Of a DNA stretch of 64,000 nt, positions 1,422-20,596 are shown piece after piece; the stretch's first letter is position 1, and each line of letters begins with the position of its first letter. Made by a program: the position numbers and the translations under genes. Origin of the DNA: Desulfosudis oleivorans Hxd3 (GTDB taxonomy: Bacteria > Desulfobacterota > Desulfobacteria > Desulfobacterales > Desulfosudaceae); the NCBI RefSeq assembly GCF_000018405.1, contig NC_009943.1, positions 509,255-573,254 of the forward strand, given 5' to 3'. The notes beneath the pieces were generated by a model. It was not told where the DNA came from. It saw only the letters and a list, made by a program, of their open reading frames with translations, and ran no database searches.

Positions 1422-1523
1422 AACGCCCAATCTCTGCGTTGCGCTGCGCCTCTCGTCATGTCACGTACTATCAGTACGCTCCATTCCTCGAGACTTGCGC
1501 GCCTTGCCCTTTAGCGTTTTAGA
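1419..1523. repeat. Palindromic intergenic element, copy 1
   Basis: Outer arms TAAAACGC and GCGTTTTAG bracket a central hairpin CGTACTATCAGTACG. The interior contains AATCTCTGCGT, which recurs in the element at 58602-58743. The left arm overlaps the iorB stop, so the element may also help end the iorAB transcript. No protein-coding signal is seen in it. Confidence 0.6.
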
Positions 1524-1550
1524 AAGTCATCCCCGACCATATTCCTTCGG

Positions 1551-1592
1551 CCTGTTTGTAGTGACGCCGTAAGGCGTTCTACCGCCGGCCGC
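1551..1592 (+). repeat. 42-bp direct repeat, copy 1 (upstream of hicAB)
   Basis: This stretch recurs at 2439-2480 with one mismatch (C at 1583 versus A). It contains a small palindrome ACGCCGTAAGGCGT. The two copies lie upstream of the hicAB and mazEF-like operons respectively. The surrounding gene-less stretch 1524-1755 shows nothing else recognisable. Confidence 0.85.
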
Positions 1593-1755
1593 ACAAGATG
1601 CCCTTACGGGCACACTACAAACCCATCCCACCCAGGGCGTCCAGTTTGTAAATCTCATACAGAAGTAAGAGGTGGTAACAAATTGTAACCACCTTAACAA
1701 TTTAAAAGTTTTCCCGGTCAACCCAAATGCCTTCGCAAAACAGGCCGCCCCCCGC

Positions 1756-1784
1756 TTGACAGCATGGTACCAGAGTAGTATCAT
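1756..1784 (+). promoter_or_regulatory. Predicted hicAB promoter with overlapping operator
   Basis: TTGACA at 1756-1761 and TATCAT at 1779-1784 are separated by 17 bp. An imperfect inverted repeat, ATGGTAC/GTATCAT (1764-1770 and 1778-1784), overlaps the spacer and -10. It is a plausible autoregulatory site for HicB. Only five bases separate the -10 from the hicA ATG, so the message may be leaderless. Confidence 0.6.
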
Positions 1785-1789
1785 GCAAC

Positions 1790-1984
1790 ATGCCAAGAAA
1801 AATACGCCAACTAATCAAAGACCTTGAAAATGCCGGATTTGTTAATCGGGGCGGAAAGGGCAGCCATCGGAATTTCTTACATGAAAAGGGAATTGCCGTC
1901 ACAATCTCAGGTCAACCTGGCGATGATGTAAAACCCTATCAGGAGAAAATTGTTAAGCAGAAGATTGAGGAGGCTAAATCATGA
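1790..1984 (+). CDS. hicA: HicA-family mRNA interferase toxin
   Basis: A 64-residue protein with the HicA double-stranded-RNA-binding-like fold. The conserved GGKGSHRNF segment holds the catalytic His, and a TISGQPGDD stretch follows. HicA toxins cleave mRNA and are neutralised by HicB. The stop overlaps the hicB start by four bases (ATGA), indicating translational coupling. There is no recognisable ribosome binding site upstream and the -10 element ends five bases before the ATG, suggesting a leaderless start. Confidence 0.88.
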   Translation: MPRKIRQLIKDLENAGFVNRGGKGSHRNFLHEKGIAVTISGQPGDDVKPYQEKIVKQKIEEAKS

Positions 1985-2337
1985 AAGATAGAGACCGTTA
2001 TTTAAAAATTGTCGAGTGGTCAGATGAAGATAAATGCTATGTCGGTTCCGTGCCAGGATGGATCGGGAAGTGTTGCCACGGAGACAACGAAGAAAAAGTG
2101 TATCGTCAACTCTGCCGTATCGTTGATGAATGGATTGACATATATAAAAAAGACGGCCAGCCTTTGCCTCCATCTATAAGTGATAAACAGTATTCCGGCA
2201 AGTTTCAATTGCGTACGGGGTGTGAGCTTCACAAGGCTTTAGCAATAAAAGCCCTACAGACCGGTAACAGCCTTAATAATTATTGTATTAATGTTTTGCG
2301 AAAAGAAGTAGCGCCGTCTGAAAAAACCATGGACTGA
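1981..2337 (+). CDS. hicB: HicB-family antitoxin
   Basis: 118 residues. The N-terminal half shows the HicB partial RNase-H fold pattern (YVGSVPGWIGKCCHGDN followed by a helix). The C-terminal half contains a segment ALAIKALQTGNSLNNYC typical of the ribbon-helix-helix or Arc-like DNA-binding domain of HicB proteins. It should bind HicA and repress its own promoter. The last 16 codons lie in a 50-bp repeat that recurs after the mazF-like gene (3178-3227), so the present C-terminus may have been set by recombination. Confidence 0.88.
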   Translation: MKDRDRYLKIVEWSDEDKCYVGSVPGWIGKCCHGDNEEKVYRQLCRIVDEWIDIYKKDGQPLPPSISDKQYSGKFQLRTGCELHKALAIKALQTGNSLNNYCINVLRKEVAPSEKTMD

Positions 2338-2338
2338 C
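2289..2338 (+). repeat. 50-bp direct repeat, copy 1 (3' end of hicB)
   Basis: Identical to 3178-3227 except for one base (A versus C). Here it encodes the C-terminal residues of HicB and the stop. At the second copy it begins with the stop codon of the mazF-like gene. Confidence 0.9.
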
Positions 2339-2340
2339 CA

Positions 2341-2418
2341 CGCTTTGCGGGATTCAGGCAGCATGCCCGCTTTTTGCCGGAAAAACCGCTTGCGCTCGGC
2401 TGCGCCGCAAAGGGCGGG
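2341..2418 (+). repeat. Partial copy of dispersed GC-rich hairpin element
   Basis: This stretch aligns with 57022-57098, sharing the block TTGCGCTCGGCTGCGC and flanking TGCCCGCTTTT and GGGCGGG. The rest of the gene-less gap between hicB and the next antitoxin (2481-2594) shows no further feature I recognise. Confidence 0.65.
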
Positions 2419-2438
2419 ATCGTTATTATGGCGGCAGA

Positions 2439-2480
2439 CCTGTTTGTAGTGACGCCGTAAGGCGTTCTACAGCCGGCCGC
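2439..2480 (+). repeat. 42-bp direct repeat, copy 2 (upstream of mazEF-like pair)
   Basis: Second copy of the 1551-1592 repeat, same orientation, one mismatch. It lies 115 bp upstream of the -35 element of the next toxin-antitoxin operon. Confidence 0.85.
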
Positions 2481-2594
2481 GCACCCCCGGGAGCGCCGCA
2501 CCCCAGTGCGGCAAATCAAACGGCCGGTTGCCACGGGCTGACCACTACCGTATCCCTCATTACCCTGCTTGCCTGTCGGGCCGCATAAAATTGC

Positions 2595-2622
2595 TTGACA
2601 TCATAAGTATAAAACATAATGT
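2595..2622 (+). promoter_or_regulatory. Predicted promoter of mazEF-like operon
   Basis: TTGACA at 2595-2600 and TAATGT at 2617-2622, spacer 16 bp. The antitoxin ATG begins seven bases after the -10, at the expected transcription start, so this mRNA too is predicted to be leaderless. Confidence 0.6.
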
Positions 2623-2628
2623 GCAGTT

Positions 2629-2847
2629 ATGAGAATTACATTATCCATACCAGATGAAGTGGCCCACCGATTCCAGGCGGCAATACCTGCCCGTCAGCGA
2701 TCTGGCCTTGTTACACGTTTATTGGAGCAGGAATTAAAGAAACGTGATAACTCGCTGGCAGCTGCTTGCCGGGCAGCCAATCGTGACAAAGCCTTGGAGC
2801 AAGAGATAGACGAGTGGCAGGCATTTGATGGCGGAATCGAGGAATGA
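2629..2847 (+). CDS. MazE-like ribbon-helix-helix antitoxin
   Basis: 72 residues. The N-terminus MRITLSIPDEVAHRF is the beta-strand and first helix of a ribbon-helix-helix DNA-binding domain. The acidic C-terminus (EQEIDEWQAFDGGIEE) resembles the toxin-binding tail of MazE-type antitoxins. Its 3' end overlaps the start of a MazF-like toxin gene. The predicted role is to neutralise the toxin and repress the operon. The toxin appears frameshifted, so the antitoxin may now be an orphan. Confidence 0.8.
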   Translation: MRITLSIPDEVAHRFQAAIPARQRSGLVTRLLEQELKKRDNSLAAACRAANRDKALEQEIDEWQAFDGGIEE

Positions 2848-3180
2848 CCGAGCCCACTATCATGAGGGGAGACTCTGGTGGGTGAGTCTGGACCCGACGC
2901 AGGGTTCCGGGATTAAAAAAACGCGTCCCTGTGTTGTCCTTTCACACAACACCATAAACCGATTTCGCCGGACGGTTGTTGTGGTTCCTCTTTCCACCGC
3001 TGCAAAATCACATCCACCCATCACGGTTCCGGTGAATTGTCAGGGGGAGCTGCCGTGGCCGTGGTGGATCAGATTCGGGCGGTTGCAAAACACAGGCTCA
3101 AAAAGAAAATTGAGTCGCTATCTCTGGCAGAGCTTGACGAGATCTGCCAGGCAGTCGCTACAATCCTTGAGATCAGATAA
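2828..3180 (+). pseudogene. MazF/PemK-family endoribonuclease toxin, frameshifted
   Basis: The N-terminal part reads as a MazF toxin: RLWWVSLDPTQGSGIKKTRP, then VVLS and VVVPLST. After PVNCQGELP (about 3053) the frame changes. In the +1-shifted frame the expected MazF C-terminus follows immediately (VAVVDQIRAVAKHRLKKK ... ATILEIR) and ends at TAA 3178-3180. One missing base near 3053 explains this. Without it translation runs in a foreign frame to 3226 and yields an unrelated tail. The start is ATG 2828, with an adjacent TTG at 2825. It could be a true loss of function or a sequencing error. Confidence 0.85.
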
Positions 3181-8639: not shown

Positions 8640-9668
8640 ATGAATGTAAGTTACCTGTTTGCATTTGTGGCGGTTGTCGTGCTGATCCTGCTTGCATGGG
8701 CCGGTGTGGGCGCATGGGGAATGACCGGCGTGTTCGGCATTCTCGTCCCTTATGCGGCCATGCTCCTGTTTGTCGTGGGATTTGCCAGAAAGATTCTGGA
8801 CTGGAGCAACTCCTATGTGCCTTTCCGCATTCCCACCACCTGCGGCCAGCAGAAGTCTCTGCCCTGGATCCGGCAGAACAAAATCGACAACCCGAACACC
8901 ACCGGCGGGGTGATTGTTCGCATGCTGCTGGAAATTTTACTGTTCCGGTCCCTTTTTCGGAACACCAGGGCCAAGTTCAAAGACAATAACCGGCTCTCCT
9001 ACCGGTGGGAAATCGTTCTGTGGGTGGCGGCCCTGGCCTTTCACTATGCGTTTGCCGTAACCCTGCTGCGCCACATGCGCTTCTTCTTCGAGCCCGTGCC
9101 CATGGTGATTCAACTGCTGGAAAGCGCGGACGCCTTTTTCCGGGTGGAGTTTTTCTCCCCCTACTTTGTCATCGGCCTTCCCGGCGTCTATGCCTCGGGC
9201 CTGGTGCTGCTGGGCGCCCTTCTTTTACTGCTGGGCCGCCGGATTTTTCTTTCCCAGGTGCGTTATGTCTCCCTGGCCGCGGACTTTTTCCCGCTGTTCC
9301 TGATCATCGGTATTGCCGCTTCCGGCATCCTGATGCGCTACTTTGCCAAGGTGGATATCTCCGCCATCAAAACCTTTGCCATGGGACTGGCAACGTTTAA
9401 ACCGGTACCGCCGGACGGGGTGAGCGCGCTGTTTTATGTCCACCTGTTTCTGGTCAGCGTGCTGGCGGCCTATTTCCCCTTCAGCAAGCTGATGCACGCC
9501 GGCGGGGTCTTTCTGTCCCCCACGCGGAACATGGCCAATAACAACCGTGCGGTTCGGCATGTAAACCCATGGAACTATTCCGTTCATACCCATACCTATG
9601 ACGAATACGAAGATGAGTTCAGAGAAAAGATGATAGAAGCTGGATTACCAGTGGAAAAGGAGCAATAG
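8640..9668 (+). CDS. dsrM: DsrM, membrane cytochrome b subunit of DsrMKJOP
   Basis: 342 residues with about six hydrophobic segments, including two near the N-terminus, WEIVLWVAALAFHYAFAVTLL and several after residue 160. It is of the nitrate-reductase-gamma (NarI-like) family that binds two b haems and menaquinol. The PTTCGQQKSLPW motif after the first helices is characteristic of DsrM. It passes electrons between the quinone pool and DsrK. The stop abuts the dsrK start with no gap, and the C-terminal tail is cytoplasmic and acidic. Confidence 0.96.
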   Translation: MNVSYLFAFVAVVVLILLAWAGVGAWGMTGVFGILVPYAAMLLFVVGFARKILDWSNSYVPFRIPTTCGQQKSLPWIRQNKIDNPNTTGGVIVRMLLEILLFRSLFRNTRAKFKDNNRLSYRWEIVLWVAALAFHYAFAVTLLRHMRFFFEPVPMVIQLLESADAFFRVEFFSPYFVIGLPGVYASGLVLLGALLLLLGRRIFLSQVRYVSLAADFFPLFLIIGIAASGILMRYFAKVDISAIKTFAMGLATFKPVPPDGVSALFYVHLFLVSVLAAYFPFSKLMHAGGVFLSPTRNMANNNRAVRHVNPWNYSVHTHTYDEYEDEFREKMIEAGLPVEKEQ

Positions 9669-11318
9669 ATGGGAAACGATATCAAACCGGAAGAGCTGTT
9701 GGAAAGAACAGATTTCGGCGTACCGGTAACCGGGTGGATGGACACTCCCGTTGAGATACGGGAAGGTATGTACTGCTACGCGTCGAACCCGAAGAGCGTC
9801 GAATACGTGGAACTTCCCAACCCCCGGAAGTGGGACCCCCTGGAGGAAGACTGGCACCTTCCGGACAACTGGCAGCAGATTCTGCACGAAGGCATCAAGC
9901 AGCGGCTGGAGCGGTTTCGGACTTTTAAAGTTTTCATGGACATCTGTGTCCGTTGCGGGGCCTGCGCCGACAAGTGCCATTTCTACCTGGGCACCGGTGA
10001 CCCCAAGAACATGCCGGTGCTGCGGGCCGAGCTGCTGCGGTCAGTGTATCGAAACGATTTCACCTCCGCCGGCAAGATCATCAAAAAGGTGTTCGGCAGA
10101 AACATCTCCGGCGCACGGGACCTGACCCTGGATGTGTTAAAGGAGTGGTGGTACTACTTCTTCCAGTGCACAGAGTGCCGCCGCTGTTCGGTCTTCTGCC
10201 CCTACGGCATCGATACCGCGGAAATCACGATCATGGGCCGGGAGCTGCTCAACCTGCTGGGCCTGAATATCGACTGGATCGCCACACCGGTGGCCAACTG
10301 CTACCGCACCGGCAACCACCTGGGTATTCAGCCCCATGCCTTCAAGGACATGATCGATTTTTTTGTCGACGACATTGAGGAGTTCACCGGCATCGCCCTG
10401 GATCCGCCCCCGATGAACAAAAAGGGTGCCGACATCCTTTTTATCACGCCGTCGGGCGATGTGTTTGCCGATCCGGGCACCTACACCGCCATGGGCTACC
10501 TGATGCTGTTCGACTACCTGAAAAAGGTGTACGGCCTGGATGTCACCTGGAGCACCTACGCTTCCGAGGGCGGCAACTTCGGGTTTTTTACCTCCCACGA
10601 GACCATGAAGCGGCTGAACGCGAAAATGTATGCCGAGGCCCGGCGCCTGGGCGTCAAGTGGATTCTCGGCGGCGAGTGCGGTCACATGTGGCGGGTGATT
10701 CACCAGTACATGGGAACCATGAACGGACCGGCCGACTTTCTGGAGGAACCGGTTAATCCCATCACCGGCACCGTGTTTGAAAATGCCCGGTCCACCAAGA
10801 TGGTCCACATCGCCGAGTTTACGGCGGACCTGATCAAGCACGGTAAGCTGAACCTCGACAAGTCGCGCAACGACCACCTGAAGGTCACCTACCACGACTC
10901 CTGCAACCCCGCCCGGGGCATGGGGCTGCTCGACGAACCCCGGTATGTCATTCAGAATGTGTGTAACCATTTTCACGAGATGCCGGCCAACACCATTCGG
11001 GAGCAGACCTTCTGCTGCGGCAGCGGCGCCGGTCTGAACGCCGGTGAGAATATGGAGCTGCGCATGTCGGGCGGTCTGCCCAGGGCCAACGCGGTCAAGT
11101 ATGTACACGAGACCTTTGGTGTCAATATGCTGTCCTGTATCTGCGCCATCGACCGGGCGGTGTTTCCCGCGCTGATGGAGTACTGGGTGCCTGAAGTGGG
11201 CGTCACCGGGCTGCACGAACTGGTGGCCAATGCCCTGGTCTTTCCTGGAGAGCCCAGACGAACCATGGATTTACGCGGAGAACCGCTTTTAGGCATGGAG
11301 GATGCTGATGAAGAATAA
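9669..11318 (+). CDS. dsrK: DsrK, HdrD-like catalytic Fe-S subunit
   Basis: 549 residues. Two ferredoxin motifs (CVRCGACADKC at residues 93-103 and CTECRRCSVFCPYG near 167) are followed by CCG-type cysteine motifs, including GGECGHMW and the SCNPARG ... FCCGSGAG pair near the C-terminus. These hold the noncubane [4Fe-4S] centre thought to reduce the DsrC trisulfide or disulfide. It is cytoplasmic and membrane-associated through DsrM. It overlaps dsrJ by a few codons. Confidence 0.96.
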   Translation: MGNDIKPEELLERTDFGVPVTGWMDTPVEIREGMYCYASNPKSVEYVELPNPRKWDPLEEDWHLPDNWQQILHEGIKQRLERFRTFKVFMDICVRCGACADKCHFYLGTGDPKNMPVLRAELLRSVYRNDFTSAGKIIKKVFGRNISGARDLTLDVLKEWWYYFFQCTECRRCSVFCPYGIDTAEITIMGRELLNLLGLNIDWIATPVANCYRTGNHLGIQPHAFKDMIDFFVDDIEEFTGIALDPPPMNKKGADILFITPSGDVFADPGTYTAMGYLMLFDYLKKVYGLDVTWSTYASEGGNFGFFTSHETMKRLNAKMYAEARRLGVKWILGGECGHMWRVIHQYMGTMNGPADFLEEPVNPITGTVFENARSTKMVHIAEFTADLIKHGKLNLDKSRNDHLKVTYHDSCNPARGMGLLDEPRYVIQNVCNHFHEMPANTIREQTFCCGSGAGLNAGENMELRMSGGLPRANAVKYVHETFGVNMLSCICAIDRAVFPALMEYWVPEVGVTGLHELVANALVFPGEPRRTMDLRGEPLLGMEDADEE

Positions 11319-11697
11319 AGGGTTGATTATTACGGGACTGATTGTCTTTTTTGTGATCGCCACCATCCCGTTCTGGTATAACGTATTTTCCGGCACCAAG
11401 GCCAAGACGCCCGAACTGGTGTATACCGACAAGGCCAAGGAGGCCAAGGTTTGCGTTGAATCCACGGACTACATGAAGACCGAACACATGCAGCTTCTGG
11501 ACCTGTGGCGGGACGCGGTGGTTCGCAAGGCTGAGCGGGCCTACGTGAACAGCAGCGGCAAGACGTTCGACATGAGCCTGACCAACACCTGTCTGGACTG
11601 CCACGCCAACAAGGCTGAATTCTGTGACAGATGTCACAATTATTCATCGGTAAGGCCTTACTGCTGGGATTGCCATAACACCAAGGAGAACAACTGA
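11308..11697 (+). CDS. dsrJ: DsrJ, periplasmic trihaem cytochrome c
   Basis: 129 residues from ATG 11308, chosen because GGAG at 11297-11300 is correctly spaced; an ATG at 11302 is too close. One N-terminal transmembrane anchor (GLIITGLIVFFVIATIPFW) is followed by a soluble domain with three CXXCH haem motifs: CLDCH, CDRCH and CWDCH, all in the last 40 residues. This is the haem count known for DsrJ. It overlaps both neighbours (dsrK end, dsrO start). Confidence 0.96.
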   Translation: MKNKGLIITGLIVFFVIATIPFWYNVFSGTKAKTPELVYTDKAKEAKVCVESTDYMKTEHMQLLDLWRDAVVRKAERAYVNSSGKTFDMSLTNTCLDCHANKAEFCDRCHNYSSVRPYCWDCHNTKENN

Positions 11698-12530
11698 TGG
11701 AAAGCAACAGAAGAGCATTTCTGAAAATAGCCGGTATCACGGCGGCGGGGATCACCGTGGCTCCGGTCCTGACCCGGTTCACCGCGTCGGCCGAGGACAC
11801 GGCCCAGAAAGGCGGGGCGCCCTCCGGAAAGACCATGAGCGGCACCGAGGCCCTGACCGCCAGGCACTGGGGCATGGTCATTGATACGCGCCAGTTTACC
11901 TCCGCGGCCGACCTGGACCCCCTCATTGAGGCCTGCCACAAGGTCCACAATGTGCCGACCTTTGAAACCGACCTGGAGACCCCGTTTTTTTCAGCGGACA
12001 AGAACCGGCACGAGATCAAGTGGCTCTGGGAAGACGAGTTCAAGCACGTGTTTCCGGACGCGGAAAACAAGTACCTGGCCCAGCGCCTGGCGGAGCTGCC
12101 TTTTCTGGCCCTGTGCAATCACTGCGAAAATCCGCCCTGTGTTCGGGCATGCCCCACCAAGGCCACTTTTCAACGGGAAGACGGCATCGTGATGATGGAT
12201 TTTCATCGGTGTATCGGCTGCCGGTTCTGCATGGCCGCCTGCCCCTACGGTTCCCGGAGCTTCAACTTCCGGGATCCCCGGGAGGGGCTGAAGGAAACCA
12301 ACATCGCTTTTCCCACGCGCATGAAGGGTGTTGTGGAAAAATGCAATTTCTGCGCCGAGCGGCTGGCAAAGGGTCAGCTGCCCGCCTGCGTGGAGGCCTC
12401 CAACGGCGCCATCCTGTTCGGTGACCTGGACGATCCCGCCTCCGAGGTGCGACGGGCACTGGAAGAAAACTTCACCATCCGGCGCAAGCCGTCCCTGGGG
12501 ACAGAGCCTTCCGTTTACTACATCGTTTAA
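11697..12530 (+). CDS. dsrO: DsrO, periplasmic ferredoxin-like subunit
   Basis: 277 residues. A twin-arginine signal NRRAFLK at residues 4-10 is followed by a hydrophobic stretch, so export by Tat in folded form is expected. Cysteine clusters CNHCENPPCVRACPTK, CIGCRFCMAACPYG and CNFC match the several [4Fe-4S] clusters of the DmsB/NrfC family. It probably links DsrP and DsrJ on the periplasmic side. It starts on the last base of the dsrJ stop codon region. Confidence 0.96.
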   Translation: MESNRRAFLKIAGITAAGITVAPVLTRFTASAEDTAQKGGAPSGKTMSGTEALTARHWGMVIDTRQFTSAADLDPLIEACHKVHNVPTFETDLETPFFSADKNRHEIKWLWEDEFKHVFPDAENKYLAQRLAELPFLALCNHCENPPCVRACPTKATFQREDGIVMMDFHRCIGCRFCMAACPYGSRSFNFRDPREGLKETNIAFPTRMKGVVEKCNFCAERLAKGQLPACVEASNGAILFGDLDDPASEVRRALEENFTIRRKPSLGTEPSVYYIV

Positions 12531-12545
12531 CAGATATCGAATGAG

Positions 12546-13721
12546 GTGATCATGCTTGATACAGCGTTAAAAGGAAACAGACAATACTGGGCACTGATCG
12601 GGGTGCTGGCCGGTATCACCGGTGTGGGATTTCTGGTCTACCTGCTCCAGTTCAAGTACGGCCTGGGCATCACCGGCATGAGCCGGGACGTGTCCTGGGG
12701 CTTTTACATCGCCCAGTTCACCTTTCTGGTGGGTGTGGCCGCCGGGGGCGTGATGCTGGTGCTGCCCTACTACCTGCACAACTACAAGGTGTTCGGCAAG
12801 ATAACCATTCTGGGCGAGTTTCTGGCCATATCCGCGGTGTCCATGTGCCTGATGTTTATCATCGCCGACCTTGGTCAGCCCATGCGGGCCTTTAACGTTC
12901 TGCTTTATCCCACGCCCAACTCCATGCTCTTCTGGGACATGATCGTGCTCAACGGCTACCTGTTTTTAAACGTGGTGGTGGGGTGGAGCGTTCTGGAAGC
13001 GGACCGCAACGGCGTGGCCCCGCCCAAATGGGTCAAACCCCTGATCTACCTTTCGGTGCCCTGGGCCTTTGGTATTCATACCGTCACCGCCTACCTGTAC
13101 TGCGGCCTGCCGGGCCGCCACTTCTGGCTCACCGCCATTCTGGCCCCCCGGTTTCTGGCCTCGGCTTTTGCCGCCGGACCGGCCCTGATCATCCTGCTGG
13201 CCATGGTCATGCGCAAGTTCACCAGGTTTGACGCCGGCAAAGAGGCGATTCAGGGAATCGCCCGCATCGTGACTTACGCCCTGATCGCCAACGTGTTTTT
13301 CTTTGCCTGCGAGGTGTTTGTGGCCTTCTACAGCAACATTCCCGGCCACATGGACCATATCAAGTACCTGTTCGTGGGGCTTCACGGCCATGGGGTGCTG
13401 GTCCCCTGGATGTGGACCTCCCTGGGCCTGATGCTGCTGGCCATTGTGCTGCTGGTGATTCCCAAAACACGGGCCAACGAGACCTTCCTGGCCTTTTCCT
13501 GCATCATCCTGTTTATCGGTATCTGGATCGACAAGGGCCTGGGCATGATCTCCGGCGGGTTTGTTCCCTCGCCCATGCACCATGTCACTGAGTACATTCC
13601 CACGGTGCCCGAAATCATCATCACCATCGGCATCTATGGCGCGGGCGCGCTGATTCTTGTGGTGCTTTACAAGATCGCCCTGACCGTCAAGGCCGAAACC
13701 GGGGATGCGGCCCATCATTAA
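12546..13721 (+). CDS. dsrP: DsrP, NrfD-family integral membrane subunit
   Basis: 391 residues with about ten hydrophobic helices and the NrfD/PsrC family layout, including GFYIAQFTFLVGVAAGGVML and a conserved HTVTAYLYCGLPGRHFW segment. It is expected to interact with menaquinone and DsrO. It is the last gene of dsrMKJOP and is followed by a strong terminator at 13746-13778. Confidence 0.96.
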   Translation: MIMLDTALKGNRQYWALIGVLAGITGVGFLVYLLQFKYGLGITGMSRDVSWGFYIAQFTFLVGVAAGGVMLVLPYYLHNYKVFGKITILGEFLAISAVSMCLMFIIADLGQPMRAFNVLLYPTPNSMLFWDMIVLNGYLFLNVVVGWSVLEADRNGVAPPKWVKPLIYLSVPWAFGIHTVTAYLYCGLPGRHFWLTAILAPRFLASAFAAGPALIILLAMVMRKFTRFDAGKEAIQGIARIVTYALIANVFFFACEVFVAFYSNIPGHMDHIKYLFVGLHGHGVLVPWMWTSLGLMLLAIVLLVIPKTRANETFLAFSCIILFIGIWIDKGLGMISGGFVPSPMHHVTEYIPTVPEIIITIGIYGAGALILVVLYKIALTVKAETGDAAHH

Positions 13722-14739: not shown

Positions 14740-15825
14740 CTAGTGTTTGGGCGGTGGCACAAACACCTCCCGTTGACCGGTCCGCTCCAGGGCCAGGGCG
14801 TCAGCCGGGCAGTGATAGGCGCACACGCCGCACCCGATGCAACGGGAGTCCGAGACATGGGCGATGTCGTCTTTCATTTCAATGGCCTCCATGGGACAGA
14901 TGTCGGCGCAGGCCTCGCACCCGGTGCAGGTATCGGCATCCACCCGTGCGACATAGGCGGCGTAGGTGATGGTGGGCGAACTGCCCCGGTAGTAGGACTG
15001 GAAGGTCTCACAGCAGCACTTGCAGCAGTTGCAGATGGCCATTTCGTTTCTGCCGGTGTCGTACTTTTCATGAAACGCCTTGTGTACCAGGCCGTCTGCC
15101 TCGGCCTTTTCCAGGATCTGTTTGGCCTGGTCCTGAGTGATGGGCTCGGCAAATCCGTAGGTGATGAAAAACTCGGCGGTCTTGCCGAAGAAAAGGCAGT
15201 TTTTCCTTTCGTCGGTCACCTTGCACGGCCGGTCGAGAAGGTCCTTCTGGTGGCGGCAGTAGCAGGTGGCCACACCAATGGTATCAAAGCGGTCCACCAG
15301 TTTTTTGACGTCCTCGCAGGGCATCACCGTGTCAAAAGCCCTGTCAATGTGCTTTTCCACCGGGACAATGCGGGTCATGGGCGGCATGGCTTTAAACGCC
15401 GGCACAATCGCATCGTAGTTGGCCTGGACCATGCCGGCAAGCTCTTCAAACAGGTTTTCAAAGAGCCGGGCCAGGGTTTTCTGCTTTTCCCCGGTCTCCC
15501 CCCGCATCATGGTGGTTTCAAAGATACCGGGAATGGGCGGCATGGCCCGGTAGACCATCAGGCCCGAGCCCCGGCTGGCCGTCCCTGAAATCACACCGCT
15601 TTTCATCAGGCTGTTGAGCATCTGGTCCAGGTCCGCGTCCGCCATGCCCGATTTTTTCTTGATCTCTTCCCGGTTTAACGGCCGGTCGAGCAGTTGAACA
15701 AACCCGGCCTGTTCCGGGGTCATGATGTTTTTCAGAATTTCAAGCAGGGTGTCGTTGACCGGAAAGGGAATGGCTCCGGCCGCGATAACGGCTGATGCCG
15801 CGGTTCGGTAGGTCTGGTCGCTCAT
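14740..15825 (-). CDS. Cysteine-rich ferredoxin-domain protein with helix-turn-helix-like N-terminus
   Basis: 361 residues. The first 100 residues resemble a winged-helix domain (LLDRPLNREEIKKKSG ... LMKSGVISG). The middle contains CYCRHQKDLLDRPC and the cysteine string CNCCKCCCETF. The C-terminus has two classical [4Fe-4S] motifs, CTGCEACADICP and CIGCGVCAYHCP. A redox or electron-transfer role is likely; the partner is unknown. It is 17 bp downstream of a TetR gene on the same strand and is probably its co-transcribed target. Confidence 0.8.
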   Translation of the reverse strand: MSDQTYRTAASAVIAAGAIPFPVNDTLLEILKNIMTPEQAGFVQLLDRPLNREEIKKKSGMADADLDQMLNSLMKSGVISGTASRGSGLMVYRAMPPIPGIFETTMMRGETGEKQKTLARLFENLFEELAGMVQANYDAIVPAFKAMPPMTRIVPVEKHIDRAFDTVMPCEDVKKLVDRFDTIGVATCYCRHQKDLLDRPCKVTDERKNCLFFGKTAEFFITYGFAEPITQDQAKQILEKAEADGLVHKAFHEKYDTGRNEMAICNCCKCCCETFQSYYRGSSPTITYAAYVARVDADTCTGCEACADICPMEAIEMKDDIAHVSDSRCIGCGVCAYHCPADALALERTGQREVFVPPPKH

Positions 15826-15842
15826 CGTGGATTCCTCCGCAG

Positions 15843-16463
15843 TTATGAAGGGTTGATGGTAAAATTGCCCAGGCTGGCCCAGGCGGCTGCCGCAAGATGC
15901 CGGGCCGCCTCGGTTACATCGGTTTTGGCATATCCTGTCACATGCATTCTGGCAAACTCCTGGCAGGGTCCCAGCAGCAGGGCGGAAAAAACATCCCTGG
16001 GCAGGGGCCGGATCGCACCGGATTCCATATGTTTTGCAAACCAGGCGGACATCTGTTTCACAAATTCAGCGTTGAGCTGTTTCATCCGGTCTTCGGTGTC
16101 ATCCATATATTCGGCATGCCGTTTCTGGAAGAGAAACCGGGCCCACTCCGGATGGGTCTTCACCCATGTCAGATGGTACTGGACAATGGCAAAAATGCCG
16201 CCTTTGGCGGTTGTCTCTTTTGAGAGGGCGTCTATCATACCGGCCTGGTAGTCGCGGACCCCCTCCAGGTAGATGGCCGCCGCCAGCCTGCCCTTGCTTT
16301 TGAAGTGGTGATACACGCTGCCGGTGCTGGCCCCTGCTTTTTTGCAGATATCGGCGATGCTGGTGGCGGGAAACCCTTTTTCCGTAAAGCAGGCCAGGGC
16401 CGCTTCAATGATCTGGCGCTGCCGCCCACAAGAGGCGGCGTGGATGGTGTTGGGCTTTTTCAT
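15843..16463 (-). CDS. TetR/AcrR-family transcriptional regulator
   Basis: 206 residues. The N-terminal helix-turn-helix ALACFTEKGFPATSIADICK followed by GASTGSVYHHFKSKG is the TetR DNA-binding domain. The C-terminal ligand domain is of the YcdC/BetI-like helical type. A palindrome begins at its start codon (16463-16498), so it very likely represses itself and the downstream ferredoxin-like gene. The ligand is unknown. Confidence 0.92.
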   Translation of the reverse strand: MKKPNTIHAASCGRQRQIIEAALACFTEKGFPATSIADICKKAGASTGSVYHHFKSKGRLAAAIYLEGVRDYQAGMIDALSKETTAKGGIFAIVQYHLTWVKTHPEWARFLFQKRHAEYMDDTEDRMKQLNAEFVKQMSAWFAKHMESGAIRPLPRDVFSALLLGPCQEFARMHVTGYAKTDVTEAARHLAAAAWASLGNFTINPS

Positions 16464-16498
16464 GACTAGAATTATATTTTAGAATTTGATTCTAGTCA
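16463..16498 (-). promoter_or_regulatory. Palindromic operator for the TetR regulator
   Basis: TGACTAGAAT (16463-16472) and ATTCTAGTCA (16489-16498) are exact inverted halves with a 16-bp A+T-rich spacer. The palindrome touches the regulator start codon and covers the likely promoter. Confidence 0.8.
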
Positions 16499-16557
16499 AG
16501 TTTTTTTCGGGACATAAAAACCGGGCCGGGTGAAAATTTTTTGGCGGTCTTTACCAC

Positions 16558-16590
16558 AAAAAAAGGGCGCCGATGTTCGGCGCCCTTTTT
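16558..16590 (-). terminator. Rho-independent terminator of the metF operon
   Basis: On the minus strand the stem GGGCGCCGA/TCGGCGCCC is followed by seven T, 30 bp after the metF stop. Confidence 0.88.
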
Positions 16591-16620: not shown

Positions 16621-17586
16621 CTATTCGGCGTCGCCCTTTTTTGCTTCCGGCGCGGGGTCGTCTTCCACCACGGGCCGGGGCAGCATGCCTGCTTTCTCAG
16701 CTATTTCCGGAACTTTATGCTCCCACTCAATGGCCATAAGGTGGACGCCGGCCACGCCCTTGGTCTCTTTTAATTCCTGAATCTGCTCGCAGGCGATCTT
16801 GATACCCTCGTTGGCCACCTCTTTTTTGTCCACGCCCTGAAGCCGCTTGATAATGGCCTCGGGAACGTCCATGCCCGGCACCTTTTTCTGCATGTACCGC
16901 GCCATACCGATGCTCTTCATGGGGGTGATGCCGCCAAGGATGTAGATCTTTTCGGTGAGGCCCATGTCGTTGGCCTGGCGGATCCATTCCCGGAACCGTT
17001 CCATGTTGAAGATACACTGGGTCTGAACAAAGTCGGCGCCGGCATCGATTTTTTTGGCCAGCCGGTGAACGCGCCATTCATAGGGCTCGGCAAAGGGGTT
17101 GGCGGCCGCGCCGATGAACATCTTGGGCGGATGGGAGATGTCGGCACCGCCCTGGAATTTGCCCTCGTCCCGCATGTTCTTGATCATATTGACCAGCTGA
17201 ATGGAGTCGAGGTCATACACCCCTTTGGCAAACGGGTGGTCACCGAACTGCTGGTGGTCTCCGGAAAGGGCCAGGATGTTGCGGATTCCCAGGGCATAGG
17301 CTCCCAGGATATCGGCCTGCATGGCAAGGCGGTTGCGGTCCCGGCACACCATCTGGTAGTTGGGCTCCACTCCCTCTTCCATGACCACAAGGGACGTGGC
17401 CCAGGAAGACATGCGCACCACCGCGGTCTGGTTGTCCGTGATGTTGGCCATGTCCACGTTTCCCTTGAGGAACCGGGCCTTTTCCTTGACCTCTTCAACG
17501 TCGGTGCCGCGCGGTGGGCCGATTTCACCGGTGAACGCAAAGTGACCGGCACGAAGAATTTTTTCAAGATGACTGCCAGCTTTCAT
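16621..17586 (-). CDS. metF: Methylenetetrahydrofolate reductase, MetF
   Basis: 321 residues, flavin TIM-barrel family. The catalytic Glu lies in FTGEIGPPRG, and the FAD region includes NILALSGDH and the substrate loop FVQTQCIFN. It interconverts methylene- and methyl-H4folate. ATG 17586 is chosen because GGGAG precedes it by nine bases; a TTG three codons upstream is less likely. The last gene of an operon with metV, a cytochrome b, a ferredoxin and a cytochrome c. No NADH-binding addition is evident; the last 20 residues are an acidic tail. Confidence 0.94.
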   Translation of the reverse strand: MKAGSHLEKILRAGHFAFTGEIGPPRGTDVEEVKEKARFLKGNVDMANITDNQTAVVRMSSWATSLVVMEEGVEPNYQMVCRDRNRLAMQADILGAYALGIRNILALSGDHQQFGDHPFAKGVYDLDSIQLVNMIKNMRDEGKFQGGADISHPPKMFIGAAANPFAEPYEWRVHRLAKKIDAGADFVQTQCIFNMERFREWIRQANDMGLTEKIYILGGITPMKSIGMARYMQKKVPGMDVPEAIIKRLQGVDKKEVANEGIKIACEQIQELKETKGVAGVHLMAIEWEHKVPEIAEKAGMLPRPVVEDDPAPEAKKGDAE

Positions 17587-17632
17587 GGTTTTCAACTCCC
17601 GTTGGTATATGGATTCTATGTATTAGCCCGGG

Positions 17633-18016
17633 TTACGCTTCCGTGTCATATGTGTGATACACTCCCTGGCTGCGGCAGATGCGGCGGGTCAGCCGGATCA
17701 TGTAGGGGATGTCGATGCCCATGGGGCAGTAACAGCGGGTGCACAGCACACACCGTTTCCACACGGTCTCCCGCATCTCCTCCAGGGTCTGCCGGTCCAC
17801 CTTTCCCTTTTTCTTGTAAATCACGCCCAGGGTGGACAAAAACTTGTAGGACGGCATGTATTTGGGGTCCTGGTTCCTGGCCTGAAACAGAAAGCAGCTC
17901 TCCGCGCACATACTGCAGTGGGCGCAGGCCTTAAGGGAAAAGGCAATCTTGGCTTTATCCTTTTCAATAATATCCTGAATGGCTTTCGGATTTACGCCTT
18001 TTGTGTTTGCTTTCAT
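17633..18016 (-). CDS. Two-cluster ferredoxin-like protein (HdrC/DsrK N-terminal type)
   Basis: 127 residues with two four-Cys motifs, CAHCSMCAESC and CVLCTRCYCPMGIDIPY. They are arranged as in HdrC and the N-terminal ferredoxin domain of DsrK and TmcB, with the same inter-cluster length and the CP-GID feature, but no CCG domain follows. Probably cytoplasmic, carrying electrons between the neighbouring cytochrome b (18062-18730) and MetV/MetF. Gene order on the minus strand: cytochrome b, this gene, metF. Confidence 0.85.
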   Translation of the reverse strand: MKANTKGVNPKAIQDIIEKDKAKIAFSLKACAHCSMCAESCFLFQARNQDPKYMPSYKFLSTLGVIYKKKGKVDRQTLEEMRETVWKRCVLCTRCYCPMGIDIPYMIRLTRRICRSQGVYHTYDTEA

Positions 18017-18061
18017 CGAATTCTATCTTTCACAAAATTATTAATACCGGCTTTGGGTTGC

Positions 18062-18730
18062 CTACCAGGTCCGTCGCCCGTTGCCGAGGCTGTACTCACT
18101 TGCCACGGCAAACCGGAAAACAGGAAAAAAGAGCATGTGCGCGAACTTGGTAAAGGGAATGGCGATCAGCATGAGTTCGCCCAGCAGCATGTGGGCCGTG
18201 ATCATCAGTTTGTAGTCGAAAATCTGGTGGTAGGCCAGGGCGCCGGTGATAAAGGGCCCGGCCGCCAGTGCCAGAAACAGGTAATCCCATGGCGTGGAGA
18301 TAAGGCGGACCCGTTCGTAAAAAATCCGGCGCACCAGGAAATATCCGGCGCAGGCAACCACCACCAGTGTGAGAAAGTCGGAAAAGCCCTCTGGAAAAGA
18401 GAAGAGGCTGGCGCCCCATGCGTTGTCGACCAGAATGTTGTGGCCCAAGACAAACAGGGGCGTGATCACCAGGCAGAGGTGAAAAACAGTCGTGACCACC
18501 ACGGTTACCGGACTGGTGCCGGCCACCGAAAGACGCAGGCGAACCCCCAGGGGCAGTTTTTTTCTTTCAACAGGCTTCAGGGACCGGGGCAGGTTTTCCA
18601 CGGGCCGTGCAGCCGATGTCAGTGACCACATCCGGTATACCTGGACAACGGCACCGACAAGAAACACGACAACCGCCACCCACACCAGCGGGCCGCGTGC
18701 CAGGTCATAGACGAGATTCAATGGATCCAT
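18062..18730 (-). CDS. DsrM/TmcC-like membrane cytochrome b
   Basis: 222 residues with about five hydrophobic helices: one at residues 9-30, then helices beginning SPVTVVVTTVFHLCLVITPLF, LTLVVVACAGYFLV, a fourth around WDYLFLALAAGPFITGA and a last one with MITAHMLLGELMLIAIPF. Conserved His in helices 2, 4 and 5 fit haem b ligands of the NarI-like gamma family. ATG 18730 has GTGGAG upstream. Its place between metV and a ferredoxin gene suggests it anchors the MetFV complex to the membrane and exchanges electrons with quinone or the periplasmic cytochrome. Confidence 0.87.
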   Translation of the reverse strand: MDPLNLVYDLARGPLVWVAVVVFLVGAVVQVYRMWSLTSAARPVENLPRSLKPVERKKLPLGVRLRLSVAGTSPVTVVVTTVFHLCLVITPLFVLGHNILVDNAWGASLFSFPEGFSDFLTLVVVACAGYFLVRRIFYERVRLISTPWDYLFLALAAGPFITGALAYHQIFDYKLMITAHMLLGELMLIAIPFTKFAHMLFFPVFRFAVASEYSLGNGRRTW

Positions 18731-18750
18731 GATTACTCCACGGGTAAAGG

Positions 18751-19431
18751 TTACGCTTCTTCCTTGGCATATCTGTGTTCATACCCGGTCTGCACAAAGG
18801 TGCGAGGGGTTGTGTTCTGCCACTCCATGGCCGCCTGAATCCGGAGGATGTCGTTTAACCGGTTCTGCTGTTTGAGCCGGTTATAGATGTCGTTCCAGGC
18901 GCAGGAGACGTCGTTGCTGATCTCGCACTTGCCGTTGTTGGTACCGCCGCAGGGGCCGTTGAACAGGCCTTTTGAACAGCGGGTTACCGGGCAGATGCCG
19001 CCGGTGTAGGCCAGCACGCAGAAACCGCAGGCCCGGCACCTTTCTTCGTAGATGCCCATCTCCCGGTCCACACCGATGGCAATGGTGTTCTGGGCCGGAA
19101 AAACCGGTTTGGAAGGGTAGCGCTCTGCCAGCATCTGGACACCGGCGCCGCAGGCCATGGAGACCAGACAGTCATACCGGACCACCAGGTCGTCCAGCTC
19201 TTCCAGGAGGGCCGCGTTGCACTGCCGCTCAACGGTATACCCGTCGATACGGGAGGTGATTTCTTTTTCCTGGAAAAGAAGGGTCAGCTCAGCATTGGTG
19301 GTGTTGACCTCGCGCTGGCCGCCGGCCATGCATACCGATACGCAGCCGCCGCACCCTATGTTCAGGATCTTGGTGTACCCCTTGACACAATCGGCTATTT
19401 CTTCCAGTGGTTTACGTTTTGCTTTGACCAA
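18751..19431 (-). CDS. metV: MetV-like methylenetetrahydrofolate reductase C-terminal/zinc-Fe-S partner
   Basis: 226 residues matching the MTHFR C-terminal-domain family (MetV) found with MetF in acetogens and sulfate reducers. Seen: an N-terminal NIGCGGCVSVCMAGGQ cluster, a CGAGVQ segment, CRACGFC and CPVTRCSKGLFNGPCGG with many cysteines for [4Fe-4S] or zinc. It mediates electron entry to or exit from MetF flavin. The start codon is TTG at 19431 with GGAGG six bases upstream. It is preceded by the cytochrome c gene and followed by cytochrome b. Confidence 0.92.
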   Translation of the reverse strand: MVKAKRKPLEEIADCVKGYTKILNIGCGGCVSVCMAGGQREVNTTNAELTLLFQEKEITSRIDGYTVERQCNAALLEELDDLVVRYDCLVSMACGAGVQMLAERYPSKPVFPAQNTIAIGVDREMGIYEERCRACGFCVLAYTGGICPVTRCSKGLFNGPCGGTNNGKCEISNDVSCAWNDIYNRLKQQNRLNDILRIQAAMEWQNTTPRTFVQTGYEHRYAKEEA

Positions 19432-19461
19432 TTGGGGCCTCCATATTTATGGATTTATTCT

Positions 19462-19869
19462 TTATTCTTTGACGTGACACTCACCACAGAGCACCGGGCC
19501 GGTGGGCCGCTTTTTAAAGGTGAACTGTTCATGGCATCCCATGCACTGAAGGTGGAACGCTTCCCGGGGTTCGATGGTGGTTTTTCCGGTGTGGCACGCG
19601 CCGCACAGGATATCCGGATTGCCCTCTTCCAGGGCGTAATCGTCCAAAATGTTGTTGCCGTCTTCGTCATAATCGTGGTGGCAGTCGAAACAGTCGAAGC
19701 CGCCCATATGCAGATCATGGGGAAAAATTACCGGGGGCCGGGTGACGTCATCCGTCATTTTCAGTTCAAGGTCCTGGGCAAGGACACAATTGCCCGATAA
19801 AACAAAAAAAAGAGAAAAAAAAGCACTGACCAGCACCGTCGCCTTTTTGCGACCCACCCGTTGTCTCAT
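19462..19869 (-). CDS. Periplasmic tetrahaem cytochrome c3-type protein
   Basis: 135 residues from ATG 19869, which has AGGAG nine bases upstream; the longer reading from 19899 lacks this. A Sec signal peptide ends near VLAQ. Four CXXCH haem motifs are present (CFDCH, CGACH, CMGCH, CGECH), with additional His in FPHDLH for sixth ligands. The pattern is of class III cytochrome c, similar to TmcA (type II c3). It is first in the metV/metF operon and thus a likely periplasmic partner of the membrane cytochrome b. Confidence 0.88.
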   Translation of the reverse strand: MRQRVGRKKATVLVSAFFSLFFVLSGNCVLAQDLELKMTDDVTRPPVIFPHDLHMGGFDCFDCHHDYDEDGNNILDDYALEEGNPDILCGACHTGKTTIEPREAFHLQCMGCHEQFTFKKRPTGPVLCGECHVKE

Positions 19870-19950
19870 GAACCCGTGCTCCTTCCAGGTAAATGCCACA
19901 GCCGCAGACAGGCACTGTGCGCCGAATCAAATTAAAAACAAAAAGAGAGT

Positions 19951-19979
19951 ATATTATGCAACAGGAGCGGGTGTGTCAA
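19951..19979 (-). promoter_or_regulatory. Near-consensus sigma-70 promoter of cytochrome-metVF operon
   Basis: On the minus strand TTGACA (19979-19974) and TAATAT (19956-19951) are separated by exactly 17 bp, leaving a leader of about 75 nt before the cytochrome c ATG at 19869. It is back to back with the dsrC promoter about 190 bp away. Confidence 0.8.
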
Positions 19980-20278: not shown

Positions 20279-20596
20279 ATGGCTACAATCGAATTCCAGG
20301 GCAAATCATTCAATGTTGATGAAGACGGCTTCATCGAGTCTTATTCTGAGTTCAGCGAAGAGTGGGTACAGTGGGTCAAGAAGGAAGAGGGCATTGATGA
20401 GCTGACCGACGAGCATCGCCAGGTCATCAAGGTCCTTCAGGACTACTACGAAAAGAACGGCATCGCTCCCATGGTTCGGATTCTGTCCAAGCTGACCGGG
20501 TTCAAACTGAAGCACATCTACGAGCTGTTTCCCTCAGGACCTGGCAAGGGAGCCTGTAAGATGGCCGGTCTTCCCAAGCCGACGGGCTGTGTATAG
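20279..20596 (+). CDS. dsrC: DsrC sulfur-carrier protein
   Basis: 105 residues with the full DsrC C-terminal arm: FPSGPGKGACKMAGLPKPTG followed by CV-stop, giving both functional cysteines, CysB in GAC and CysA as the penultimate residue. It accepts sulfite-derived sulfur from DsrAB as a trisulfide that DsrMKJOP reduces. The gene stands alone with its own promoter and terminator, as is common for dsrC, and dsrAB is not in this window. Strong ribosome site AAGGAGG. Confidence 0.97.
   Translation: MATIEFQGKSFNVDEDGFIESYSEFSEEWVQWVKKEEGIDELTDEHRQVIKVLQDYYEKNGIAPMVRILSKLTGFKLKHIYELFPSGPGKGACKMAGLPKPTGCV

Follow-up and report, generated by a model that had tools for sequence, protein, structure and literature searches.

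Where do the electrons of methyl-tetrahydrofolate go in bacteria that oxidize carbon completely through the reverse Wood–Ljungdahl pathway? The oxidation of methyl-tetrahydrofolate (−200 mV) is an awkward step of this route, with nicotinamide adenine dinucleotide (NAD+) and ferredoxin too low in potential to act as acceptors, and a membrane-linked methylene-tetrahydrofolate reductase has been suspected since 1977. The question is raised anew by five genes in a 64,000-nucleotide stretch of the Desulfosudis oleivorans Hxd3 genome (the window), which encode the reductase subunits MetF and MetV, a cytochrome b, a short ferredoxin, and a tetrahaem cytochrome c, and which recur as a module in host groups prominent in the oxidation of carbon in marine sediments. 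From their content and conservation, we consider it likely that these genes encode a membrane-anchored MetVF reductase, passing electrons from methyl-tetrahydrofolate to menaquinone and/or periplasmic cytochromes. The published cases come without an identified membrane protein, and for Sporomusa ovata a question mark takes the place of the Q-cycle partner in the published scheme (PMC9430772). An earlier note on this DNA, made from the letters alone, had proposed such a complex and knew of no characterized one with this composition; the literature searched, in which subscription journals are thinly covered, likewise yielded neither a link between MetVF and Tmc nor such a module.

Conservation of the Module

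Three retrievals were made, using MetV (297 genomes of the phylum), the cytochrome b alone, and the ferredoxin alone (291 Desulfobacterales species genomes). The MetV matches fell into two sets, one of ~33 genomes with high scores and a large one with lower scores; the cytochrome b and the short ferredoxin are present in most of the high-scoring loci, and the remainder mostly have HdrABC-MvhD-type neighbors. Among the best 80 contig loci matched by the cytochrome b, 51 belong to the cytochrome b group of the window. MetV adjoins every one of these 51 clade members, the short ferredoxin is present in 50 (the remaining locus is cut by a contig end), a c-type cytochrome lies nearby in 42, and a close MetF is found within 5 kb in 32; the other loci among the best 80 encode TmcB/HmcF proteins with a CCG part. 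With the ferredoxin profile, 57 genomes score 170 bits or more, nearly all through short frames, and below a score gap (160 bits or less) almost all matches are frames of 250–550 amino acids or fragments. All 54 newly fetched loci above this gap contain the cytochrome b and 53 contain MetV, the lone locus without it starting ~1 kb from a contig end; the MetV/cytochrome b module is absent from the six loci just below the gap, where CCG-type long or split proteins are encoded. Because it recurs in 51/51 and 53/54 independently fetched loci, the adjacency is beyond chance.

As read from these neighborhoods, the constant core of the module is MetV, the ferredoxin, and the cytochrome b, and MetF can sit elsewhere in the genome: among 23 genomes picked for a non-adjacent metF, 21 have a full-length, 73–80% identical MetF elsewhere, one has a fragment, and one a protein of 59% identity. 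The earlier note had treated the five parts as a unit, which holds for the core, and neither an adjacent MetF nor the periplasmic cytochrome (42/51) is universal. It had also asked beforehand whether the adjacency might be unique to Hxd3. It is not, given the short ferredoxin in 57/291 Desulfobacterales species genomes and further groups beyond: members from the ferredoxin retrieval include D. multivorans and D. toluolica Tol2, the cytochrome b retrieval adds Desulfosarcina widdelii PP31, and the module is also present in Syntrophales, Desulfohalobiaceae, and metagenome-assembled genomes labelled Myxococcota and Spirochaetes.

The periplasmic end of the module varies. In the L098/L100 group, metVF is followed by a 16-haem HmcA and then, as seen in L098, by HmcB and the NrfD-family HmcC, so that, by gene order, the periplasmic end joined to the MetVF–ferredoxin–cytochrome b core can be Tmc-like or Hmc-like.

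Several loci have further MetF or MetV relatives. A divergent MetF–MetV fusion of ~520 amino acids lies directly behind the module in L045 (265–1851) as well as in L047, L052, L063, L064, L117, and L124, often with a normal MetF on the opposite side. Syntrophaceae-type loci (L083, 8760–12632; also L087, L095, L105–L107, and L131) carry a second, ~35% identical MetF after metV, next to which, in L083, are a PAS-domain histidine kinase and a two-cluster ferredoxin. In L144 and L156, a different MetV–MetF pair is accompanied by a TmcC-like protein and by an HdrD/TmcB-like one that is split but retains its CCG part, possibly an intermediate or an independent association. In L068–L076, MetVF adjoins very long HdrA-like open reading frames (~1400–1480 amino acids; assigned by size only), a common partner arrangement in the phylum.

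Anatomy of the Five-Gene Locus

Families were assigned with Pfam and NCBIfam profiles. MetF (PF02219, E = 1.5e-45) and the adjoining MetV (PF12225, E = 2.1e-35) both score far above the cut-offs; the locus carries a MetVF-type methylene-tetrahydrofolate reductase pair, whose catalytic activity is predicted. The cytochrome b matches TmcC best (E = 1.1e-54), then HmcE (3e-38), and DsrM at merely 0.005. It is a membrane protein with the features of the TmcC/HmcE superfamily, all-helical and with four haem-ligand histidines (84, 97, 180, and 198) that are invariant and placed as in HmcE, and it ends in a C-terminal motif, E-x-x-x-x-x-G-x-R-x-W. Its AlphaFold model is all-helical and of modest quality (mean predicted local distance difference test score of 70), and the best Foldseek matches are all NarI, at E = 0.03 or worse, a weak fold match with which the model is consistent. 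Searched against the PDB, the cytochrome b profile reached NarI alone (E = 0.01), and sequence searches of the PDB with the single cytochrome b, ferredoxin, or MetV gave no match.

The ferredoxin aligns to residues 39–152 of HmcF (457 residues) and 22–137 of TmcB (430 residues). In this alignment it is the HdrC-like N-terminal quarter of TmcB/HmcF, from which the CCG part serving DsrC is absent. Module ferredoxins contain CxxCxxCxxxC and then CxxCxxCxCP (mostly CxxCxxCYCP, as in Hxd3), the second motif being private to the module and two residues shorter than in TmcB/HmcF. The cytochrome c is closest to TmcA (E = 4e-19; Cytochrom_CIII, 1e-11) and has four CxxCH motifs, eight histidines, and, by eye, an N-terminal hydrophobic export signal. 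All three score under the curated Tmc equivalog cut-offs (TmcC, 185 against 240 bits; TmcA, 69 against 114; TmcB, 94 against 735). A search for natural fusions among MetV, ferredoxin, and cytochrome b gave none; the only fusions seen were the MetF–MetV proteins of different, divergent type mentioned above.

The five genes span 16621–19869 on the minus strand, in the order tetrahaem cytochrome c, MetV, cytochrome b, ferredoxin, and MetF, with no foreign open reading frame interrupting them (Table 1). The earlier note had named these parts correctly: all five co-directional frames are in place, the identities of MetF, MetV, the TmcA-like tetrahaem cytochrome, and the TmcB-like two-cluster ferredoxin without CCG domains agree with the profiles, and the promoter that it proposed, TTGACA-N17-TAATAT, is present as a consensus match. 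Its ‘DsrM/TmcC-like’ cytochrome b proved to be TmcC-like and not of the DsrM type. Promoter-like sites number 8 against 2.3 expected, and both the promoter and the hairpin in Table 1 are consensus matches only.

Table 1. Features of the MetVF–cytochrome locus of D. oleivorans Hxd3 (positions in the window)
Feature	Position	Strand	Details
Promoter-like site TTGACA-N17-TAATAT	19951–19979	-	Upstream of the five genes; 10/12 consensus bases; consensus match only
TmcA-like periplasmic tetrahaem cytochrome c3	19462–19869	-	135 amino acids, ATG; alternative GTG start at 19899 possible
MetV, iron–sulfur/zinc subunit of methylene-tetrahydrofolate reductase	18751–19431	-	226 amino acids, TTG start
Dihaem cytochrome b membrane subunit, TmcC/HmcE type	18062–18730	-	222 amino acids
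Short ferredoxin, two [4Fe-4S] motifs, without CCG domains	17633–18016	-	127 amino acids
MetF, flavin adenine dinucleotide subunit of methylene-tetrahydrofolate reductase	16621–17595	-	324 amino acids, TTG start
Terminator-like hairpin, 14 pairs	16560–16590	-	3′ of metF; with a T-run, T-rich on both sides

In the window, dsrMKJOP (8640–13721, plus strand) and dsrC (20279–20596, plus strand) flank the module, making electron-transfer genes of sulfite reduction its neighbors in Hxd3. At 14740–16499, a 361-amino-acid protein begins with a possible helix-turn-helix-like segment (weak TrmB match) and ends in a two-cluster ferredoxin; its neighbor is a TetR regulator, whose promoter-like site on the minus strand, TTGACT-N17-TATAAT, is near-perfect.

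Phylogeny

Quick trees were built, with support given as the Shimodaira–Hasegawa-like approximate likelihood ratio test (SH-aLRT) and no bootstrap. In the cytochrome b tree, a branch with an SH-aLRT of 99 splits MetV-linked from CCG-linked sequences, and the MetV-linked cytochromes form the sister group of TmcC/HmcE; the grouping with an unrelated complex that the earlier note had allowed for is not what the tree gives. The D. multivorans cytochrome b (L037) attaches at the dividing branch through a long branch that leads to it alone. The module MetVs likewise form one group (SH-aLRT 99), next to the HdrABC-linked MetVs. Exceptions in label within the tree groups are loci with truncated or missed neighbors (L125, L066). 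The simplest reading of both trees is a single exchange of partners on a shared MetVF core, which would have taken HdrABC-MvhD in one lineage and the ferredoxin–cytochrome b pair in the other.

Proposed Electron Path and Pathway Link

In the path that we propose, the flavin of MetF would oxidize methyl-tetrahydrofolate in the methyl branch of the reverse Wood–Ljungdahl pathway. The iron–sulfur clusters of MetV would take up the electrons and hand them to the pair of clusters in the short ferredoxin, which would in turn reduce both b haems of the TmcC/HmcE-type subunit; menaquinone and/or the periplasmic tetrahaem cytochrome would be the acceptors of these haems. A Tmc/Hmc-type transmembrane unit would thus have swapped its CCG (DsrC/heterodisulfide-type) catalytic part for MetVF. 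The potentials of methylene/methyl-tetrahydrofolate and menaquinone are −200 mV and −74 mV, respectively (PMC9430772, PMC8578096), and the computed oxidation of methyl-tetrahydrofolate yields about −24 kJ/mol with menaquinone versus +23 kJ/mol with NAD+. As a c-type cytochrome is missing near 9 of the 51 clade loci, menaquinone would serve more generally as acceptor, and the route into the periplasm is probably a branch added to it.

The genomic setting ties the module to this pathway. Hxd3 encodes acetyl-CoA synthase, formyl-tetrahydrofolate synthetase, and QrcD. In several genomes, the module lies directly behind acsB, acsC, and the methyltransferase gene acsE (family search on L083), and gene sizes and order like those of the L083 acs operon are found in L086, L091, L098, L100, L103, L107, and others. 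Within Desulfobacterales, acetyl-CoA synthase is present in 52 of the 57 module genomes versus 176 of the 234 others (Fisher p = 0.007, without correction for ancestry), and the five module genomes without it are incomplete assemblies.

The MetF genes of Hxd3 number three: one standing alone (L001), the copy in the window, and one in a second metVF pair (L003). This pair is followed by an F420-hydrogenase-beta (FrhB/FpoF-like) gene, whose product is possibly a further electron partner for MetVF; the arrangement occupies 1477–3071 and 367–1461 of L003, at 1.37 Mb of its own genome. Elsewhere in the genome are a true tmcBC, with a 422-amino-acid open reading frame at the place of TmcD (L005), and a locus of the Hmc type (L006), which makes the window genes a third and separate member of this membrane family.

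Published Data on D. multivorans and Qrc

A second Tmc cluster of D. multivorans has been described as ‘tmcA2B2C2 at 2.38 Mbp’ (PMC5109826). The module of this genome lies at 2,377,074–2,379,377, and cluster and module are very probably one set of genes. Membrane-enriched fractions contained most of the constituents of the two Tmc clusters in each of the 17 substrate conditions, and the Wood–Ljungdahl enzymes, formate dehydrogenase excepted, were constitutive (PMC5109826). The organism is without periplasmic hydrogenase or formate dehydrogenase, which left the role of Tmc and the electron donor of Qrc unexplained (PMC5109826); the puzzle of Qrc is repeated for the family (PMC11887813).

A tentative extension, which we hold to be somewhat doubtful, is that the module could be the missing periplasmic electron source of hydrogenase-poor Desulfobacteraceae, feeding Qrc. 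Electrons of methyl-tetrahydrofolate would then run through MetVF, ferredoxin, cytochrome b, and the tetrahaem cytochrome to periplasmic cytochrome c3, Qrc, and finally menaquinone, and the electrogenic step of Qrc would conserve the energy of carbon oxidation. If true, this would solve the published puzzle of the reductant for the abundant Qrc in strains that lack periplasmic hydrogenases.

Weighing the Alternatives

Several observations weigh against a membrane-anchored reductase. MetF is non-adjacent in 19 of the 51 loci, some of which are accounted for by short contigs, and nine have no tetrahaem or multihaem cytochrome close by. The MetVF enzymes studied to date are mostly soluble or loosely bound (PMC9430772, PMC8578096). 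In statistical terms, the link to acetyl-CoA synthase is modest, the enzyme being common and shared ancestry not removed. Finally, TmcB2 of D. multivorans was reported as undetected and of 50 kDa (PMC5109826), a misfit with a ferredoxin of 127 amino acids.

That MetF can be unlinked, and that S. ovata MetVF purifies without its Hdr partners (PMC9430772), would suit an arrangement in which the genes are co-regulated and their products do not form one complex, soluble MetVF passing electrons to a diffusible carrier and thence to a separate ferredoxin–cytochrome b unit. We regard this as unlikely, since MetV, ferredoxin, and cytochrome b are not found apart in the clade, MetV and the cytochrome b each have a single-clade history, and the ferredoxin has a dedicated motif.

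The same complex might also run mainly in the reductive direction, from menaquinol or periplasmic cytochromes to methylene-tetrahydrofolate, for biosynthesis or autotrophy, as in the proposal for S. ovata with HdrABC. The acs operons that house the module can run either way, and S. ovata membranes carry out H2-dependent reduction of methylene-tetrahydrofolate (PMC9430772). However, Hxd3 and D. multivorans are both listed as non-autotrophs (PMC5109826), menaquinol (−74 mV) is a poor donor to an acceptor at −200 mV, and the two further MetF genes of Hxd3 could cover biosynthesis, which together make mainly reductive use quite improbable. Least credible of all is that the genes form an ordinary second Tmc complex, the annotation given in D. 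multivorans, which takes periplasmic electrons to cytoplasmic DsrC beside a chance metVF neighbor: three subunits do match best to TmcA, TmcB/HmcF (N-terminal part), and TmcC, dsrC and dsrMKJOP do adjoin in Hxd3, and the true TmcBC locus shows the family at work there, yet the DsrC-serving CCG domains are absent from the ferredoxin, a true Tmc is encoded elsewhere (L005), MetV adjoins in 51/51 and 53/54 module loci, and the scores stay under the Tmc equivalog cut-offs.

If correct, the membrane-anchored reductase would let bacteria respire directly on the methyl-oxidation step. Its membrane parts are now named in cultivated sulfate reducers (Hxd3, D. multivorans, D. toluolica, and Desulfosarcina widdelii), so the question is directly testable. 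Annotations would change as well, at least one module locus having been read as a spare Tmc complex.

Comparison with Known Systems

The module shares parts with two membrane complexes. In common with TmcABCD, it has homologues of TmcA and TmcC and of the N-terminal TmcB domain; unlike TmcABCD, the module has MetVF, lacks CCG domains and TmcD (which is absent beside the five genes), and its cytochrome b falls in a separate group. With HmcABCDEF, it shares an HmcE-type cytochrome b with equal histidine positions and, in the L098/L100 variant, homologues of HmcA, HmcB, and HmcC, partners that are absent from the Hxd3 window; it differs in the short ferredoxin that takes the place of HmcF and in the insertion of MetVF. 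Without the CCG domains, and with scores below the curated cut-offs, the module is neither a Tmc nor an Hmc complex.

Four types of methylene-tetrahydrofolate reductase are distinguished in acetogens, namely MetF, MetVF, MetVF-RnfC2, and MetVF-HdrABC-MvhD (PMC9430772, PMC13040438; literature to 2026). Type II MetVF of Clostridium ljungdahlii and type III MetVF-RnfC2 of Acetobacterium woodii have the same catalytic core, but are soluble, linked to NADH or ferredoxin, and without cytochromes; no RnfC-like open reading frame was found among the five genes or their neighbors. Closest is type IV, MetVF-HdrABC-MvhD of Moorella thermoacetica and S. ovata (T. phaeum being similar), which shares the MetVF core and an HdrC-like two-cluster ferredoxin, whose electrons are expected at the membrane or quinone, and whose MetVs form a neighboring group in the tree. 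Open reading frames for HdrA, HdrB, and MvhD are absent from 13–24 kb of the window, and HdrABC/MvhD-sized and HdrB/HdrC-like frames are present in comparison loci L056, L058, and L062. In place of these subunits, the module has a cytochrome b integral to the membrane and, usually, a cytochrome c in the periplasm, and so would be anchored directly in the membrane and have no site for flavin bifurcation. Judged by its gene content, this membrane module fits none of the four published types and would be a fifth.

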